DNA of 22,019 nucleotides, from positions 1 to 22,019 of the IMG/VR virus record IMGVR_UViG_3300044675_002013. One strand, written 5' to 3'. The stretch is from a virus. Below the pieces are notes generated by a model, which saw nothing but the letters and a program-made list of their open reading frames with translations, did no database searches and was not told where the DNA came from. Positions 2,925 to 21,710 of this stretch are shown piece by piece (within the stretch, counting starts at the first letter, position 1; each line of letters begins with the position of its first letter). A program made the position numbers and the translations under genes.

Positions 2925-3881
2925 TCATTTCCTCATTTCTGCCGCAACTGCACGGGCGTACTGCTCATTCGTCAGTCCCAACCGCTTAGCGAGTTCCACC
3001 TGCGTCCTTGTCAGCACGATCTTTTTAGGCGCTGTGCTGCGAGTTGCTGGTGCAACAACATTCGATTTCTTTGGAGAAGGAGTCGCATCCCCCAAAACTT
3101 CAGTATCCCCGGACTCGAACGCATCCGGAAAGACTTGTTTCATACGAGCATCGATGCGCTCGTAATATTCAGACGATGACGGCGTAATTCCAGATTTAAC
3201 CAGCTTGTTGTGGAACCCCAATGCAAAGCTGGTCATCTCGTCGTCATTGCCAAACCATGTGTTCTTATCTGTCCATTCCTGAGTTTTCGCATCAAGTTTG
3301 GGCCGAACTGGTTCAGCGGTAGGTATTTGTACCTGTTTTTCCTGCTCTTGTACAGGTGCTGGCCGAAAATTGTTTACACGCTCAGCTTTCATCTGAATCG
3401 AGGTCATTTTCAACTGGGCCGCAGTCAAGGCGTCAGAATCGCCACTTTCGTGAGCGGCCTTGAACTCTCGCTGCGCGTCCGCCAGCTCACTGGCTACAAC
3501 CTTTTTAGCCTGCTCGAGGAGGGCGCTCTGGCCTTGGTGCAAGCTGCCTTTGAGTTTTTTGTTCTCTTCGACAACCTGCTGGGCAAGACGTACGGCCTCT
3601 TCGCGTTCCCGCAAAGCAGACTCTTTGGCTCTACGCTCTTCGTGGTAGCCCTTGGTGAAGTGCTGAATGCGTTTACGAACGCCCTCGTCGTACTTGGAAA
3701 GCTCTTCGTCGGTTACATCCTTAGGAGGCTCTTCCATTGGCTTTCTGCCACGGTCCTCCTCGGGGGTGTCGTCAACAATCTCAACTTCTGGCTCGGCCTC
3801 TACAGCCTTTGATCCAGCGCGGGATTGCTTTTCCTCCACCTCGTCGGGGAAGGTAAATTCGGTTTTGTCAATTTCTGCCAT
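2925..3881 (-). CDS. Putative capsid scaffolding protein, 318 aa
   Basis: The composition is that of a scaffold: a strongly acidic N-terminus (residues 1-60 rich in Glu and Asp), a long charged coiled-coil region (about 75-170, many Glu, Lys, Gln and Ala), a low-complexity middle, and a basic C-terminus that could contact the capsid shell. It lies between the portal and capsid genes, where scaffolds are usually found. AAGGAGG four to five bases before ATG 3879-3881 is the strongest ribosome site in the operon. The stop codon of the upstream GroES-like gene is embedded in it, which suggests coupled translation. No enzyme motif is seen. Confidence 0.7.
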   Translation of the reverse strand: MAEIDKTEFTFPDEVEEKQSRAGSKAVEAEPEVEIVDDTPEEDRGRKPMEEPPKDVTDEELSKYDEGVRKRIQHFTKGYHEERRAKESALREREEAVRLAQQVVEENKKLKGSLHQGQSALLEQAKKVVASELADAQREFKAAHESGDSDALTAAQLKMTSIQMKAERVNNFRPAPVQEQEKQVQIPTAEPVRPKLDAKTQEWTDKNTWFGNDDEMTSFALGFHNKLVKSGITPSSSEYYERIDARMKQVFPDAFESGDTEVLGDATPSPKKSNVVAPATRSTAPKKIVLTRTQVELAKRLGLTNEQYARAVAAEMRK

Positions 3882-11996: not shown

Positions 11997-12575
11997 ATGA
12001 CTACAACCAACCGTGAAGACTGGCTTTCAGCCGCCGTGAGTGAACTGCGCCCCTTCTTCGATGCAGTGGGTGCGCCCCTGCCAGCGAACGTTCGTGTGAC
12101 CTGTGGTTTCCCGTCCAACGCCAAGCGCTCGGGTGCGATTGGTGAATGCTGGGCAGACACTGCCTCCGCTGATCAGACCTTTGAGGTTTTGATCAGCCCT
12201 GTGCTGGATGACCCCTTGCGGGTGTTCGATGTGCTGGTGCATGAGTTGTGCCATGCCACTGCTGGGGCAATGAACCACGGTGTCAACTTCCAAAAGGTTG
12301 CCGCCTTGATGCACCTTGTGCCGAGCGCTGGCCCCAAGGGCTGGAAAGCCACTGGCCCGTCAGCCTCATTCATCCCTACATTCGGGTCAATCATTGACTC
12401 GCTGGGCTCATACCCTCATGCCGCCCTGACCATGTCCAACCGCAAGGTGCAGACCACAAGGATGCTCAAAGCAGTGTGCCCGTCCTGTGGGTACACCGTG
12501 CGCCTCACCTCTAAGTGGGCGGCCCTTGGCCTCCCTTCCTGCCCCGTCGATTCCGACACCCTCAACCTCGCTTAA
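11997..12575 (+). CDS. SprT-like zinc metallopeptidase
   Basis: The 192-residue protein has the SprT signature HELCH (residues 82-86) within VFDVLVHELCHA, followed by NHGVNF with H94 as the likely third zinc ligand. A C-terminal zinc-ribbon remnant has C161-PS-C164 and C182-P; the expected fourth Cys is missing. SprT/Spartan-family proteins cut proteins, often those crosslinked to DNA, and phage members are common but little studied. ATG 11997-11999 follows ACTGGAG, with a good promoter directly upstream. It heads a three-gene set with a MoxR/CobS-like ATPase and an HExxH-VWA protein. A shared function in protein remodelling or proteolysis is inferred. Confidence 0.8.
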   Translation: MTTTNREDWLSAAVSELRPFFDAVGAPLPANVRVTCGFPSNAKRSGAIGECWADTASADQTFEVLISPVLDDPLRVFDVLVHELCHATAGAMNHGVNFQKVAALMHLVPSAGPKGWKATGPSASFIPTFGSIIDSLGSYPHAALTMSNRKVQTTRMLKAVCPSCGYTVRLTSKWAALGLPSCPVDSDTLNLA

Positions 12576-12588
12576 TTGGAGACCTGCC

Positions 12589-14052
12589 ATGACTGACCTG
12601 CAACTCAAAATCAAAATCTTGGAATTGCCCATCGCAGTGGTGCTGGGTGCTCATGCCCAGTATGGGCGGGGCACTTTTTCGGGCACACCGTCCGAGCAAA
12701 AGTCCAAGGCCGCTGATTACCTGATCTCTTGCATTCGGGCCAACAACCTGACCCTTGATGAAATCAGGAACGCCACACCCGTGAAGCCCGTGTCCACATC
12801 CGCTCCATCGGTGGATGTGTCTGCCATCACCGCCGTTGCCAACCGTGCCGAGGCGTCTGCCCTTGATGCCCACTCCAGCCTGAGTGCCTTGCGACTCACC
12901 CTGCGGGATGTGGAGAGCCAACTCACCTGTGAGATCAGAGACCGCCGTGATGACATCCTTGATGTCAAAGATGCCCTCGACAAGATGGCCTTCCAAGTCG
13001 GACAGGTTTCCATTGATGACCGTAAGGTTCAAGATGCCGTTGCCAAGGTGGTCGCTGATGCGTTTAAACCCTTTGAGCAAGCCGTGAAAGCCGCCGGGGC
13101 TCAGGCTGTAGTCGCAGACCTTGCATCTGTCCAAGTGGTGGATGTCAAAACCTGCTATGACGCTTTTGGTGTCGATGTGGTGGATACCAAGGGAAACCCC
13201 CTGAACGTGAGCATCTGGAATGACCCGTCTGCCCCTGCGGTTGACCCTCACTTCATCTGGACTGATGACATTCTCCAGCACCTGATCTTGTCTCAGGACT
13301 CGGGTGAGTCGGTCTGGTTCGGTGGGCCAAAGGGTACAGGTAAATCCGAGACCGCCCGTCAGTTTGCCGCCGTTACGGGCCGTGCGTTTAAACGCATCAA
13401 CTTCCACAAGTACACCAGCGCCGAGGATTACATCGGTGCGGTGGGTTTGGAAAACGGGCAGACCGTGTTCAAGCGAGGCGACTTCCTCGCCGCCTTTACG
13501 CACCCCTCGACCGTCATCCTGTTGGATGAGGTGACCAACGCTGACCCCGGTGAACTGGCCCCGTTGAACGGCTTTTTGGAGCCCAACAGCGCCGTGTCAT
13601 TCGGTGGGTCTGTCCAGACCCGTGCCCCCGGTGTGCTGGTGTTTGCCGCTGACAACACGCTGGGCAATGGTGACGATACAGGCCGCTACGCTGGCACACG
13701 CCAGATGAACAGCGCCCTTGTTGACCGCTTCGCCCGTGTGGTGCAGTTTGACTACCTGCCCCTAGCCTCTGAGGTGGAAGCCTTGGTGCGTCACACTGGA
13801 TGCAACCCCAAGCTTGCCCTGCACATCCTTGAGGCTGTCCATGTGGCTCGGCGTCAGGTGCTGACAGGCGAGGTGATAGATGCTCCCTCCATTCGGTCGG
13901 TGATCGCCTTCATTCGTGCCTTGCGTGTCTTGCCTGTAGACAAGGCATGGGCGACAACCATTGCCGCCCGTCAACCAGCCGAGTCCCTTCCGGGCTTGTC
14001 TGCTATCTATGCGTCTTGCATCTGCGAGACAACAATCAACAACTACTTGTGA
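12589..14052 (+). CDS. MoxR/CobS-like AAA+ ATPase
   Basis: The 487-residue protein has an N-terminal region with a long coiled coil (about residues 80-160) and a C-terminal AAA+ domain. Walker A is GPKGTGKS (246-253). Walker B is VILLDE (309-314). The sensor-1 region is FAADNTLGNGDD with N356, and the arginine finger is in SALVDRF (R380). The FKRGDF insert before Walker B and the overall pattern fit the MoxR/CbbQ/CobS branch, which works with a VWA-domain partner, and such a partner is the next gene. ATG 12589-12591 follows TTGGAG; an upstream extension overlaps the SprT gene and is unlikely. It presumably powers remodelling of a protein or metal-cofactor complex. The target is unknown. Confidence 0.85.
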   Translation: MTDLQLKIKILELPIAVVLGAHAQYGRGTFSGTPSEQKSKAADYLISCIRANNLTLDEIRNATPVKPVSTSAPSVDVSAITAVANRAEASALDAHSSLSALRLTLRDVESQLTCEIRDRRDDILDVKDALDKMAFQVGQVSIDDRKVQDAVAKVVADAFKPFEQAVKAAGAQAVVADLASVQVVDVKTCYDAFGVDVVDTKGNPLNVSIWNDPSAPAVDPHFIWTDDILQHLILSQDSGESVWFGGPKGTGKSETARQFAAVTGRAFKRINFHKYTSAEDYIGAVGLENGQTVFKRGDFLAAFTHPSTVILLDEVTNADPGELAPLNGFLEPNSAVSFGGSVQTRAPGVLVFAADNTLGNGDDTGRYAGTRQMNSALVDRFARVVQFDYLPLASEVEALVRHTGCNPKLALHILEAVHVARRQVLTGEVIDAPSIRSVIAFIRALRVLPVDKAWATTIAARQPAESLPGLSAIYASCICETTINNYL

Positions 14053-14059
14053 GGTTCCC

Positions 14060-15673
14060 ATGAACATCGAAACCATCCTGACCCGCCCCTCTGTGCGTGG
14101 TCTTGAATTCCGTCTCGGCCTTGAAGCCTACGCCCACAAGGTGGGGTCTGCCCTTGGCCTGTCCCGTGTGCGTGTCCTCTGGAGGGCAGATGTCCAGACT
14201 GCTGGCATCAATGCCAACGGCGACCTGTACTTGGCGGGTGTGCCTGATGATGCCAAGGTGAGCCGCGCCTTGGTGGTCAAGTACGCCGCCTATGTGGTGC
14301 ATGAGTTGTTGCACCACAAGTACACCGACTTTGATGTCATGTCCCCTGAACAGTACATTCGCACCCTGCACAATGCGGTGGAGGATGGCTGGATTGAGAA
14401 CACCGGGATTGCCTCTGGCTTGCTGGGTAACATCGGCCCCCTGCTGGGTGAGATGATCGACACCATGACCCGTGAGGCTTTGGCGACCGTCAAGGATTGG
14501 AACGATCCCCGCCAGTACCCCTACATCCTCGCTGTGCATTGCCGTAAACACGCCACTGTCAAGTGCCCCACCAACCCCAAGTTGACCGCCATCTTCGATG
14601 AGGCCGCACGTTGGTGCTTGACTGCAAAGGACAGCAACCAGACCCTCGCAATTGCCGAGTGGGTTTATGAGCAGATCAAGCAAGCCAGCAAGGATGAGCC
14701 CAAGGGTGATGGCAAGAAAGACAAGGACAAGGACGGCAAGGACGGCCCAAGCAAGCCCTCAGACGGGCCTACAAGCCCCGATCAGCCCGAGGGTGAGGAC
14801 AAGGGTGCAGACAAGGCCGATAAGGGCTCTGACGGCCCCGCTGGCCCCGTGCAATCACCCGAGGGTGTCGAGGCCGACCCCGTGGAGCCCAAGCTTGGCG
14901 AGGGTGGCATTGCTGGCGCTTACTCCACTGACGTTTCACTCAGGGATGAGCGCTTCCACCTGTCCAGCCGCACCATCCCTGACTTGGTCAACGCACCCGT
15001 CCCTGCCAAGCTTCGCTATGAAGTTAAGCGCCTGTTTGATGACTCGGGTCTGTCTGACTTCACCCGCAACCGCAAGGCCGGGGTTGTCAACATCCATGCC
15101 CTGCCAACAGTGGCCACTGGCAACGACCGTGTGTTTAAACGCCGCCTTGAGGTGGAGGGCATTGACTCTGCGGTGGTGATCTGCCTTGATGTCTCGGGCT
15201 CCATGTTTGAGGTGGAGTCTTGGAGACCAAAGCCCCTGATCGGCCCCGCTGTTCAGGCTTGCCGTGCCCTGCTGGAGACGCTGGATGCGGCTGGGGTCAA
15301 GACTGCAGTGCTGTGCTTTGGTGGGCAGATTTCAGTGCCCAAGGGCTTCAACAAGAACGTCAAACAGGCAAGCACCCTGCTGGGCACGGTACAGGCTGGC
15401 GGTGGTACGAACGACTACGCCGCCCTGCGCTACGCCCACCAGATGCTGGCCCAGCGCCCCGAGCGCCGCAAGATCGCCTTTGTGATCACTGACGGGTACG
15501 GCAAGCCTGATGCTGTGAAACAGCAAGTCGCATCGGGTAAAGCCTTGGGTGTGACAACCATCGGCATCGGCATCGGTGCTGATGTGTCGTGGATATACGG
15601 GCAAGCAGTGACTGTCCGGGACATTGCCGACCTCGGCAACGCAAGCTTCAAGCAGATCAAGCTTGCGGCATAA
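14060..15673 (+). CDS. VWA-domain protein with N-terminal HExxH motif (CobT-like)
   Basis: The 537-residue product has three parts. An N-terminal domain carries HELLH (residues 81-85) within YVVHELLHHKYTDF and a later LHNAVEDGWIE that could supply the third metal ligand. A disordered Lys/Asp/Gly/Pro-rich linker spans about 208-282. A C-terminal VWA domain has an intact metal-binding MIDAS: DVSGS (377-381), GGTND with T450, and ITDG with D478. CobT is similar in its linker and VWA part but is not known for an HExxH site. ATG 14060-14062 follows GAGG, which overlaps the stop region of the ATPase gene, so the pair is translationally linked. A hairpin follows the stop. Confidence 0.8.
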   Translation: MNIETILTRPSVRGLEFRLGLEAYAHKVGSALGLSRVRVLWRADVQTAGINANGDLYLAGVPDDAKVSRALVVKYAAYVVHELLHHKYTDFDVMSPEQYIRTLHNAVEDGWIENTGIASGLLGNIGPLLGEMIDTMTREALATVKDWNDPRQYPYILAVHCRKHATVKCPTNPKLTAIFDEAARWCLTAKDSNQTLAIAEWVYEQIKQASKDEPKGDGKKDKDKDGKDGPSKPSDGPTSPDQPEGEDKGADKADKGSDGPAGPVQSPEGVEADPVEPKLGEGGIAGAYSTDVSLRDERFHLSSRTIPDLVNAPVPAKLRYEVKRLFDDSGLSDFTRNRKAGVVNIHALPTVATGNDRVFKRRLEVEGIDSAVVICLDVSGSMFEVESWRPKPLIGPAVQACRALLETLDAAGVKTAVLCFGGQISVPKGFNKNVKQASTLLGTVQAGGGTNDYAALRYAHQMLAQRPERRKIAFVITDGYGKPDAVKQQVASGKALGVTTIGIGIGADVSWIYGQAVTVRDIADLGNASFKQIKLAA

Positions 15674-20370: not shown

Positions 20371-20604
20371 TTAAGTTGAAGTGCCTTGCGGCTCTTGGTG
20401 TGATTGGTTGATCTGCGTCACCTTTTTTTGTATCTCCCTGTAGATTTCTTTGAACCTCTTCTCGTCTATCTGCCAGTGTCTGTTCGCCGCCAAGATGTCC
20501 GATGCCTCCCTCTTGGTCAGCCATATCAATGGCTTCCTCTTCCTGTATTCGAGGTGATCCCGTAACTCTTGCGTGACCGCCTTGTAGTATTCCTCAGAGG
20601 GCAT
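20371..20604 (-). CDS. Unknown small basic protein, 77 aa
   Basis: I set the start at ATG 20602-20604 with AAGGA about six bases upstream. The longer frame to 20709 would translate the leader. The product (MPSEEYYKAVTQELRDHLEYR...) is helical and highly charged (KPLIWLTKREASDIL, then KRFKEIYREIQKKVTQ). It could bind nucleic acid or another protein. It is the first gene of the leftward replication operon. Confidence 0.7.
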   Translation of the reverse strand: MPSEEYYKAVTQELRDHLEYRKRKPLIWLTKREASDILAANRHWQIDEKRFKEIYREIQKKVTQINQSHQEPQGTST

Positions 20605-20760
20605 TTCTATCCTTGATACGCCGGATGGATAATTTCCACCCAAAGACCCCCTACCCCACGGGATGTGAGGCGAGGGGAAGGTTCCACCCCTGCAAAGCAG
20701 GATCATCATGTTACGGATTGTCCGTATACCCTCGGCTTGATGATGCGACCAGCCGCACGG

Positions 20761-20788
20761 ATTATTCGGGAACTGCCCCCTAGACCAA
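20761..20788 (-). promoter_or_regulatory. Possible leftward promoter for the replication operon
   Basis: On the minus strand TTGGTC (20788-20783), 16 bases and AATAAT (20766-20761) give a moderate sigma70-like match. The -35 lies in a small palindrome (GACC-AA-GGTC, 20783-20792). It is downstream of the structured RNA's terminator, so it could supply the operon independently. Confidence 0.35.
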
Positions 20789-20878
20789 GGTCATACCGTG
20801 TCGCGGTTTTCTTCCGAGCGGCCCCACTTGCGGCCCCTGCTGTCGTGCGGAGTACGGAAGGCGTGGAAAGTACAGACG

Positions 20879-21002
20879 AAAAAAAGCCGCTTGCAACTGC
20901 GATCCCGGTAGCAACCTTGCCTAATACCTCTCAACAGAGCATTAGGAAAGGCGGAATCGCATGTGTAAGCGGCCTCAATTTTTCGTTACTTGCTACGGCA
21001 AC
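20879..21002 (-). ncRNA. Candidate structured small RNA ending in an intrinsic terminator
   Basis: On the minus strand, a promoter (21037-21009) predicts a start near 21002. About 30 bases later GCCGCTT (20973-20967) pairs with AAGCGGC (20892-20886), immediately followed by seven T (20885-20879): an intrinsic terminator with a long closed interior. Inside, GCGATTCC (20960-20953) pairs with GGGATCGC (20906-20899) with one wobble. An apical hairpin CCTAAT/ATTAGG (20946-20941 with 20925-20920) encloses CTCT/AGAG. A 5' segment GTAGCAA can alternatively pair with TTGCTAC near the 3' side, suggesting a pseudoknot or switch. The RNA would be about 124 bases. The family is unknown to me. Confidence 0.55.
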
Positions 21003-21008
21003 AGCTTC

Positions 21009-21037
21009 ACTGTATCACAGCTTTTTGGAACTTGCAA
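21009..21037 (-). promoter_or_regulatory. Leftward promoter of the structured RNA
   Basis: On the minus strand TTGCAA (21037-21032), a 17-base spacer and TACAGT (21014-21009), preceded by TGA as an extended -10, form a plausible sigma70 promoter. It lies about 40 bases downstream of the tRNA 3' end in the same direction. Confidence 0.5.
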
Positions 21038-21079
21038 TAAAAGATTGCGAACGTTCTTAGGGGTTTACCCTATACATGT

Positions 21080-21154
21080 TGGTTGCGGAGGACGGACTCG
21101 CACCGTCGATCTTCTGGTTATGAGCCAGACGGATTACTTCTTTCCCACCCCGCA
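21080..21154 (-). tRNA. tRNA with CAT anticodon (Met or Ile2), CCA encoded
   Basis: The minus strand folds as a tRNA. Acceptor TGCGGGG (21154-21148) pairs with CTCCGCA (21090-21084) with one G-U pair. The anticodon stem is TCTGG/CCAGA with loop CTCATAA (21124-21118). The T stem is GACGG/CCGTC (21107-21103 with 21095-21091, in minus-strand order). Discriminator A is followed by CCA. The D arm is short (GGA/TCC with a nine-base loop lacking GG), and the T loop TGCGAGT departs from TTCRANY. It may be a divergent phage tRNA or a tRNA mimic. CAT could read Met, or AUA if lysidine-modified. Confidence 0.75.
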
Positions 21155-21189
21155 GTTAAAGTTTAAACGATGGTGGCTCAGCCTGCAAG

Positions 21190-21225
21190 CTCATCTGGTG
21201 AGCCTGCGTGCAAGCCTGCGTGCCT
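21190..21225. repeat. Short direct repeats of GCCTGCGTGC
   Basis: The ten-base word occurs at 21202-21211 and 21215-21224, with a partial copy (GCCTGCAAGC) at 21181-21190. They lie between the tRNA and the RusA-like gene, near GTTTAAAC (21161-21168) and GTGTAAAC (21229-21236). Their role is unknown; they could be protein sites or remnants of recombination beside the tRNA. Confidence 0.35.
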
Positions 21226-21275: not shown

Positions 21276-21710
21276 TTAGCCCCGGCCCTTGCGCTGGGGC
21301 TTCTTTTTTGGGGCAACCTCTTCTATCTTCTCGATCATGATCTCTGCCCGAGGGTTCTCAGGATCAAGGCCCCAGTACGCATGGCGCTCTTTGACCTGAC
21401 GGTCGTTCTCATATATCAGTCCCTGCATCAGGTCGAGGATCAGCGTCTCGTCCAAGTCAGGTCTGCGGCTTGCGTAATAGATATGCAGCGTCACCCGAAG
21501 GTCGCCGGTCATAAGGCAGGCGAGCGGCCTGCATTGCTGTTTAAACACATCTGAGTAGTTGAGCGCCTTTTCGGACTTGATGAGCCGGGACACCCCGCCG
21601 AAACGTACCATCCTGCGACTGTTGCTTTTTGATGCTGGCTCACCAAAAATAATTTGCACTAGGGCTTGCAATTCTGTTGTATCATCACTATTATTGAGTT
21701 TCTCAGTCAT
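21276..21710 (-). CDS. RusA-like Holliday junction resolvase
   Basis: The 144-residue protein has the RusA catalytic pattern: RRPDLDETLILDLMQGLIYENDRQV (residues about 82-106, shown here only to mark the motif). It aligns with the RusA core R-DLDN...D-x-QV, with D85, D87 and D103 as the probable metal-binding acids. A basic C-terminus (KKKPQRKGRG) follows. RusA-family enzymes cut branched DNA made in recombination and replication, before packaging. ATG 21708-21710 follows AAAGG. It is transcribed away from the PD-(D/E)XK nuclease gene only 20 bases off. Confidence 0.85.
   Translation of the reverse strand: MTEKLNNSDDTTELQALVQIIFGEPASKSNSRRMVRFGGVSRLIKSEKALNYSDVFKQQCRPLACLMTGDLRVTLHIYYASRRPDLDETLILDLMQGLIYENDRQVKERHAYWGLDPENPRAEIMIEKIEEVAPKKKPQRKGRG
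21666..21694 (+). promoter_or_regulatory. Rightward promoter inside the RusA-like gene
   Basis: TTGCAA (21666-21671), an exact 17-base spacer and TATTAT (21689-21694) form a good sigma70-like promoter for the nuclease gene at 21731. Predicted start is near 21701, giving a leader of about 30 bases. The promoter lies within the first codons of the divergent RusA-like gene, so the two genes may compete. Confidence 0.5.

Follow-up and report, generated by a model that had tools for sequence, protein, structure and literature searches.

Near the right end of the window, by which we mean the whole 22,019-nt stretch analysed here (a 22-kb virus record of an aquatic phage; the genomes of its relatives measure about 61-64 kb), a short interval of the minus strand separates a tRNA gene from the replication genes. 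Does this interval hold an RNA gene of its own and, if so, what could such an RNA do for the phage? The order on the minus strand is a RusA-like Holliday junction resolvase (21276..21710; Pfam PF05866, PHROG 34 and 140), a tRNA-Met(CAT) gene (21080..21154; Rfam and ARAGORN), the interval in question, and then replication genes with a primase-helicase. An earlier note on this DNA had proposed a structured small RNA, not described before, that brings along both a promoter and a terminator. Our comparative data support this proposal, and the RNA, here called RNA1, is almost certainly a member of a real structured RNA family.

Architecture of RNA1 and its promoter

RNA1 (type I small RNA, 124 nt) runs on the minus strand from 21002, its inferred 5′ end, to 20879, with the 3′ end in the U run. 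The promoter with an extended -10 box, the fold and the seven-T terminator, reported earlier in this order, are all present in the sequence. The promoter is of the sigma70 type: the -35 box TTGCAA (21032..21037, minus) is separated by a 17-nt spacer from the extended -10 box TGATACAGT (TGnTACAGT; 21009..21017, minus), which stands 6 nt before the first base of RNA1. It scores 8/12, hence is unlisted by a generic promoter scan, and its support is comparative. Among the matches listed, a -10-like box lies 5-8 nt before the first hairpin in 109/109 relatives, with at least four of six matches in 107 and an exact TATAAT in 37 of them. An exact TTGACA occupies the place equivalent to the -35 box in 72/109, while control positions in the same 109 relatives gave no exact TATAAT or TTGACA. 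Because the -10 box keeps a fixed distance from this hairpin, the transcript probably begins at the hairpin's first base.

That hairpin, P1 (GTTG[CCGTAGCAAG]TAAC; 20985..21002, minus), was missing from the elements listed in the earlier note. Its four pairs are all formed in 73/73 relatives, and its loop holds the 5′ strand of a pseudoknot (GTAGCAA; 20990..20996, minus). The 3′ strand (TTGCTAC; 20908..20914, minus) occupies a single-stranded junction between P4 and P3, and the two strands are complementary in relatives. This seven-base pairing had been noticed before and taken for an alternative fold; the pairing does exist, but it is a pseudoknot compatible with the other stems. The 7-bp outer stem GCCGCTT/AAGCGGC, the 8-bp inner stem and the apical hairpin described earlier are also present. 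The outer stem does close the structured body: it is part of P2, the terminator-closing stem (5′ strand AGGCCGCTTACA, 20964..20975; 3′ strand TGCAAGCGGCTT, 20884..20895; both minus), whose 12 pairs are 99.7% paired in the alignment of relatives, with changes on both sides at 6 of the 12. The inner stem is P3 (GCGATTCC, 20953..20960; GGGATCGC, 20899..20906; both minus), which is supported by covariation, and the apical hairpin is P4 (20915..20951, minus), placed by fold and alignment and differing in length among relatives. The terminator ends in a run of seven T (20879..20885, minus); in all family members examined but one, a T run of 4-9 (mode 6) is found. Positions 20872-20995 (minus) fold with a minimum free energy of -55.5 kcal/mol, compared with -33.0 ± 3.8 kcal/mol for 200 dinucleotide shuffles (z = -5.93), and none of the 200 shuffles folded as well.

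The features that characterise the new family, all of which RNA1 displays, are thus a 5′ hairpin with a loop-to-junction pseudoknot, the terminator-closing P2, P3 and P4, and a sigma70-type promoter 5-8 nt before P1.

Comparative evidence and distribution

Two sets of homologues carry the comparison. The relatives in set (a) were fetched through the neighbouring RusA protein alone, that is, independently of the RNA sequence. A strong model match was found downstream of RusA in 50 of 80 loci, 41 of them distinct, and in 41/41 the two halves of the pseudoknot can pair over seven bases or more, in 17 different sequences. In this unbiased set, 17 of 28 pairs have changes on both sides. Three of the measures (paired fraction, covariation score and changed-cell count) were reached by 0/500 shuffles, and the remaining two by 7/500 and 20/500. 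Set (b) was defined by an exact conserved-core pattern, which occurs in at least 120 viral contigs and represents at least about 110 distinct main-type members, including those members of set (a) that hold the exact core. Among the matches listed, 107 of 109 distinct relatives have a perfect pseudoknot (7/7), which is spelled in about 20 different ways, compared with a mean of 8.4 and a maximum of 16 in the shuffled control. Changes on both sides occur at 23 of 35 helix pairs in set (b), and 0/500 shuffles reached any of the five measures. All helices of RNA1 covary above both shuffles and slid controls.

Since an exact core was the condition for entering set (b), the invariance there of the most conserved internal-loop motif, ACACAUGC/GCAGUUGU, is partly ascertainment. 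In set (a) the motif varies (for example, UUACUCAUGC/GCAGUAGUAA and UUAAUUCUAC/GUAGAGCUAA), and in Vibrio phage NF a continuous helix, judged by inspection, stands in its place. The positions conserved in sequence lie mostly in helices, and the unpaired stretches vary. The window RNA1 matches the covariance model R1 at 1.2e-14, a value to be read with the window copy being one of the model's seeds; independent support for R1 comes from the RusA-fetched set. Of 20 phage records searched from end to end, 19 had one copy each. Weaker matches on the opposite strand were rejected as a second gene, as they mirror the near-palindromic stem of RNA1 itself.

The earlier note had named two observations that would speak against an RNA, namely a lack of compensatory base changes in homologues and a conserved protein in the plus-strand frame. 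Compensatory changes proved abundant, and the antisense strand proved non-coding: an antisense open frame is present in 38 of 73 relatives, close to the 32 expected after shuffling, and lengths vary out of register, from 99 to 136 nt. Plus-strand coding over RNA1 was therefore rejected. Likewise, that there is no RNA here, only a chance stem or an inverted repeat acting at the DNA level, is hardly credible, as it is contradicted by the fold z score, the covariation and the conservation of promoter and terminator. In deposited genomes RNA1 is either unannotated or lies beneath ORFs. Two such ORFs (4709-4822 in L253, phage BS5, and 7912-8271 in L258, phage MW202484) are deposited as hypothetical proteins and are probably spurious.

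Searches for known families returned only tRNAs. At the gathering threshold, the 4227 families of Rfam 15 matched nothing but the tRNA in the window, and the same held for window positions 20600-21200 at E values up to 5; on 27 relative loci Rfam reported tRNAs, none of them on RNA1. A tRNA or tmRNA identity of RNA1 itself was rejected, ARAGORN finding only the neighbouring tRNA-Met, a gene that was not found in most relatives scanned. Neither Rfam 15 nor the literature searched yielded a named family of this architecture. What appears to be new, judged from sequence comparison, is both the RNA family and its architecture, which match no known family.

Against cultured phages, blastn gave tRNA-type matches only for the window RNA and no match for a main-type member, and with a long-type member it found Vibrio and Pseudoalteromonas phages. 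This longer form, which has a second pseudoknot-like helix, is carried by Pseudoalteromonas phages BS5, HS2 and Pq0, by five Vibrio breoganii phages and by Vibrio phage NF. RNA1 is also carried by the metagenomic spring phage MW202484 (Manatee Spring phage). The closest relatives of the window terminase (51-58% identity) are in phage DSL-LC04, phage 023Pt_psg01 and Pelagibacter phages HTVC027P/HTVC023P; no model match was present in the 41.5-49.8 kb searched of each of DSL-LC04, 023Pt_psg01 and Pelagibacter phage HTVC027P. Two pattern scans of about 85,000 GTDB bacterial and archaeal genomes, which required the core together with the terminator (which a CRISPR repeat would not have), yielded no credible RNA1 member. 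The scans gave zero matches and then one, and this sole match (L257) was rejected from the family, as it is without the family's stems. For the core searched, neither cellular chromosomes nor prophages gave any sign of harbouring it. The family is large and apparently undescribed, with members in well over a hundred phage contigs.

The genomic context of RNA1 varies. In the clade of the window it belongs to the replication module; NF has it in the early region, Pq0 behind the major capsid gene, and BS5 ahead of a second RNA and head genes; in Vibrio 1.085.O a tRNA-Trp gene begins right behind the terminator. RecE- and RecT-like proteins are neighbours at other loci. No defence or counter-defence gene was recognised in the neighbourhood within the 22-kb window, which is part of a genome, and Pfam and PADLOC found no toxin family among the RNA1 neighbours examined. 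Elsewhere in the window, a MoxR-like AAA ATPase stands beside a VWA (CobT-like) protein (12487-15673, plus strand), a chelatase-like pair in a phage.

RNA2 and the exchangeable slot

Directly downstream of RNA1 lies a second structured noncoding RNA, RNA2 (type A; 20857->20647, minus), recognised from an alignment of 40 sequences. A stem (ACTCC/GGGGT) closes it, further helices and a pseudoknot lie inside, and 14 of its 27 pairs have changed on both sides in this alignment; 0/500 shuffles reached four of the five measures of covariation. Its single-sequence fold is unremarkable (z = -0.31). The internal pseudoknot shows covariation of the ATCATCA/TGATGAT type. RNA2 is also present at 1277-1486 of the contig L001 and in the relatives aligned. 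RNA2 of type A was found in at least 120 viral contigs, and no Rfam model matches RNA2 itself.

In most loci RNA1 is directly upstream of RNA2 and co-directional with it, and RNA2 begins about 20-30 nt after RNA1, with no obvious promoter of its own. Other phages have downstream RNAs of sequence types B-H in the place of RNA2, and the type I RNA1 is followed by downstream RNAs of at least seven sequence types, an approximate count from a short-motif classification. In the L269 phage, RNA2 (3327-3442, minus) contains an embedded tRNA-like domain that Rfam scores as tRNA at 33.7 bits and that ARAGORN does not call. By inspection, an RNA2 with such a domain is also present in L308 and L338; the domain has the T arm GGTTCGATTCC and a large insert in the D region, and sits inside a long stem. 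In 19 of 113 loci (L020, L026, L030, L057 and others), RNA1 and RNA2 have a third element between them, a palindrome about 90-100 nt long (CTAGG...GGGTTAGCGCC...CCTAG). For a 112-aa ORF of the window (20371-20709, minus), the listed start at 20709 falls inside RNA2; the ATG at 20604, with the ribosome site AAGGAT, is the likelier start.

The place of RNA1 upstream of RNA2 is itself a slot in which the RNA is exchanged. Three contigs (L006, L039 and L011) share with the window the promoter (93-96% identity) and the downstream sequence (95-98% identity; two blocks of 95% in L011), and between these they carry an unrelated RNA, type II, as the body. Conversely, L041 has the body in common with the window (88%) and not the promoter. 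Type II RNAs also have a covarying loop-to-junction pseudoknot, complementary over at least seven bases in 36 of 41 compared with 6.6 after shuffling. Among 91 loci that have a type A RNA2 and at least 480 nt of upstream sequence, a match to the type I model lies just upstream in 59. Of the remaining loci, the non-redundant ones examined carry terminator-ended structured small RNAs of types II, III and IV or singletons, with types III and IV assigned by inspection only. Small RNAs of types II, III and IV with promoter and terminator occupy the slot in L006, L011, L039, L261, L266 and L269, and further carriers are L270, L280, L293, L299, L304 and L317. Types III and IV had no match among cultured phages.

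Possible function and relation to known systems

Overall, we provide a tentative picture of how RNA1 may work. Host RNA polymerase would make RNA1 as an independent transcript, which would be stable, its structure locking both ends. The RNA would then act through its shape and bind a protein, serving as decoy or scaffold when the phage takes over its host early on or counters host defences. That RNA1 acts in trans seems to us likely. That it is a protein-binding decoy or scaffold for host take-over or counter-defence is the reading that we favour, while granting that it may well be wrong. We favour it because a fixed slot (promoter, terminator, then RNA2) exchanges unrelated pseudoknotted RNAs. 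Such exchange is commonly seen in components that hosts or competing phages drive to diversify; it could also come from mosaic recombination without host pressure. More speculatively, many aquatic lytic phages may carry a two-RNA cassette, in which a promoter and a slot for an exchangeable pseudoknotted RNA (types I-IV, RNA1 being type I) precede the larger RNA2, sometimes with an embedded tRNA. The slot RNA would then be the specificity part of an undescribed RNA-based system for host take-over, counter-defence or rival exclusion.

Other explanations have to be weighed against this decoy or scaffold reading. With RNA2 only about 20-30 nt behind and having no obvious promoter, RNA1 could be a leader under regulation or end in a terminator that leaks. 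In that reading it would be a cis-acting attenuator before RNA2 and the early or replication operon, with the pseudoknot controlling read-through. The co-directional arrangement in most loci and a terminator stem in essentially all relatives agree with this. We nevertheless consider it rather unlikely, because the gene context of RNA1 varies: the downstream genes are unrelated between phages, and in Vibrio 1.085.O what follows the terminator is a tRNA gene. Moreover, inspection revealed no competing partner for either strand of the terminator, and the pseudoknot is compatible with the terminator, with P2 close to 100% paired across relatives. The leader switch for the replication operon suggested in the earlier note is thus not favoured; of the marks of a riboswitch or attenuator leader, RNA1 shows neither a mutually exclusive antiterminator nor a conserved downstream gene. 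An antisense-pairing form of the regulatory small RNA suggested there is disfavoured as well, because a conserved unpaired seed is lacking, the conserved columns lying mostly in helices. The third suggestion of that note, a decoy, agrees with the reading favoured here.

It is also doubtful that RNA1 and RNA2 form a two-RNA complex, for example a structural particle like those of GOLLD or ROOL, with RNA1 as the exchangeable piece. A type I or other terminator-ended structured RNA does stand upstream of type A RNA2, and RNA2 is pseudoknotted, with a tRNA-like domain in the L269 copy such as GOLLD linkers sometimes have. However, with at least seven downstream RNA types the type I RNA1 has no fixed partner. 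We judge it quite improbable that RNA1 is an antitoxin or decoy for one defence family, be it type III toxin-antitoxin, AbiF-like or a CRISPR effector as with Racr. Such RNAs are small, structured and protein-binding, and phages express Racr RNAs from a promoter dedicated to them (PMC10651486), but RNA1 has no tandem repeats and no neighbouring toxin or Cas protein was found. In addition, the exact core with the terminator is in no bacterial genome scanned, although a mimic need not share sequence. RusA and primase-helicase adjoin RNA1 in the window, and RecE- and RecT-like neighbours occur at other loci, as would suit a replication-linked RNA (an origin primer or an R-loop RNA). Yet RNA1 lies among head genes in Pseudoalteromonas phages BS5 and Pq0, and a strong terminator and a very stable fold disfavour a primer, which makes this role very unlikely.

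The RNA1 family is a part of phage biology that protein-centred annotation has overlooked. The swap of the body behind a common promoter offers a direct handle on the target or opponent of RNA1, and the cultured Vibrio and Pseudoalteromonas carriers put it within reach of testing now.

Compared with known systems, RNA1 resembles several and coincides with none. 6S RNA is a stable rod-like bacterial RNA with a long closing stem and a large central bubble that binds RNA polymerase. RNA1 would likewise be stable and rod-like, and the logic of phage take-over would fit it, but it has a 5′ hairpin-loop pseudoknot, lacks the large central bubble and has no Rfam match. The RNA antitoxins of type III toxin-antitoxin systems (ToxI-like) are small pseudoknotted protein-binding RNAs. 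Their mark is tandem pseudoknot repeats beside a toxin gene, and a type III antitoxin is disfavoured because RNA1 is single copy, with no toxin gene found beside it. A likeness of the RNA1 core to the ribosomal decoding site or SRP RNA was considered and dropped, evidence being lacking. Racr RNAs are phage-encoded, solitary CRISPR repeat units with their own promoter, which act in trans by mimicry with no adjacent cas genes (PMC10651486). RNA1 is also a small noncoding phage RNA that has a promoter to itself and lacks neighbouring cas genes; unlike a solitary repeat unit, it is 124 nt long, pseudoknotted and terminator-closed, with no known likeness to a CRISPR repeat. The viral RNA-guided repeat system VIPR, whose RNAs are tandem GGY/NN repeats (PMC13142463), was set aside. 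GOLLD and ROOL are ornate pseudoknotted phage-encoded RNAs whose function is unknown and which frequently lie close to tRNA genes, and GOLLD sometimes carries linked tRNAs (PMC12286853), which recalls the tRNA-like domain of the L269 RNA2. In contrast to both, RNA1 is only about 100-136 nt long, and it has no counterpart among the 4227 Rfam families. Catalogues of candidate structured RNAs (PMC2864571, PMC8040213) came from the same kind of comparative discovery, and the RNA1 family could be an unnamed entry among them.
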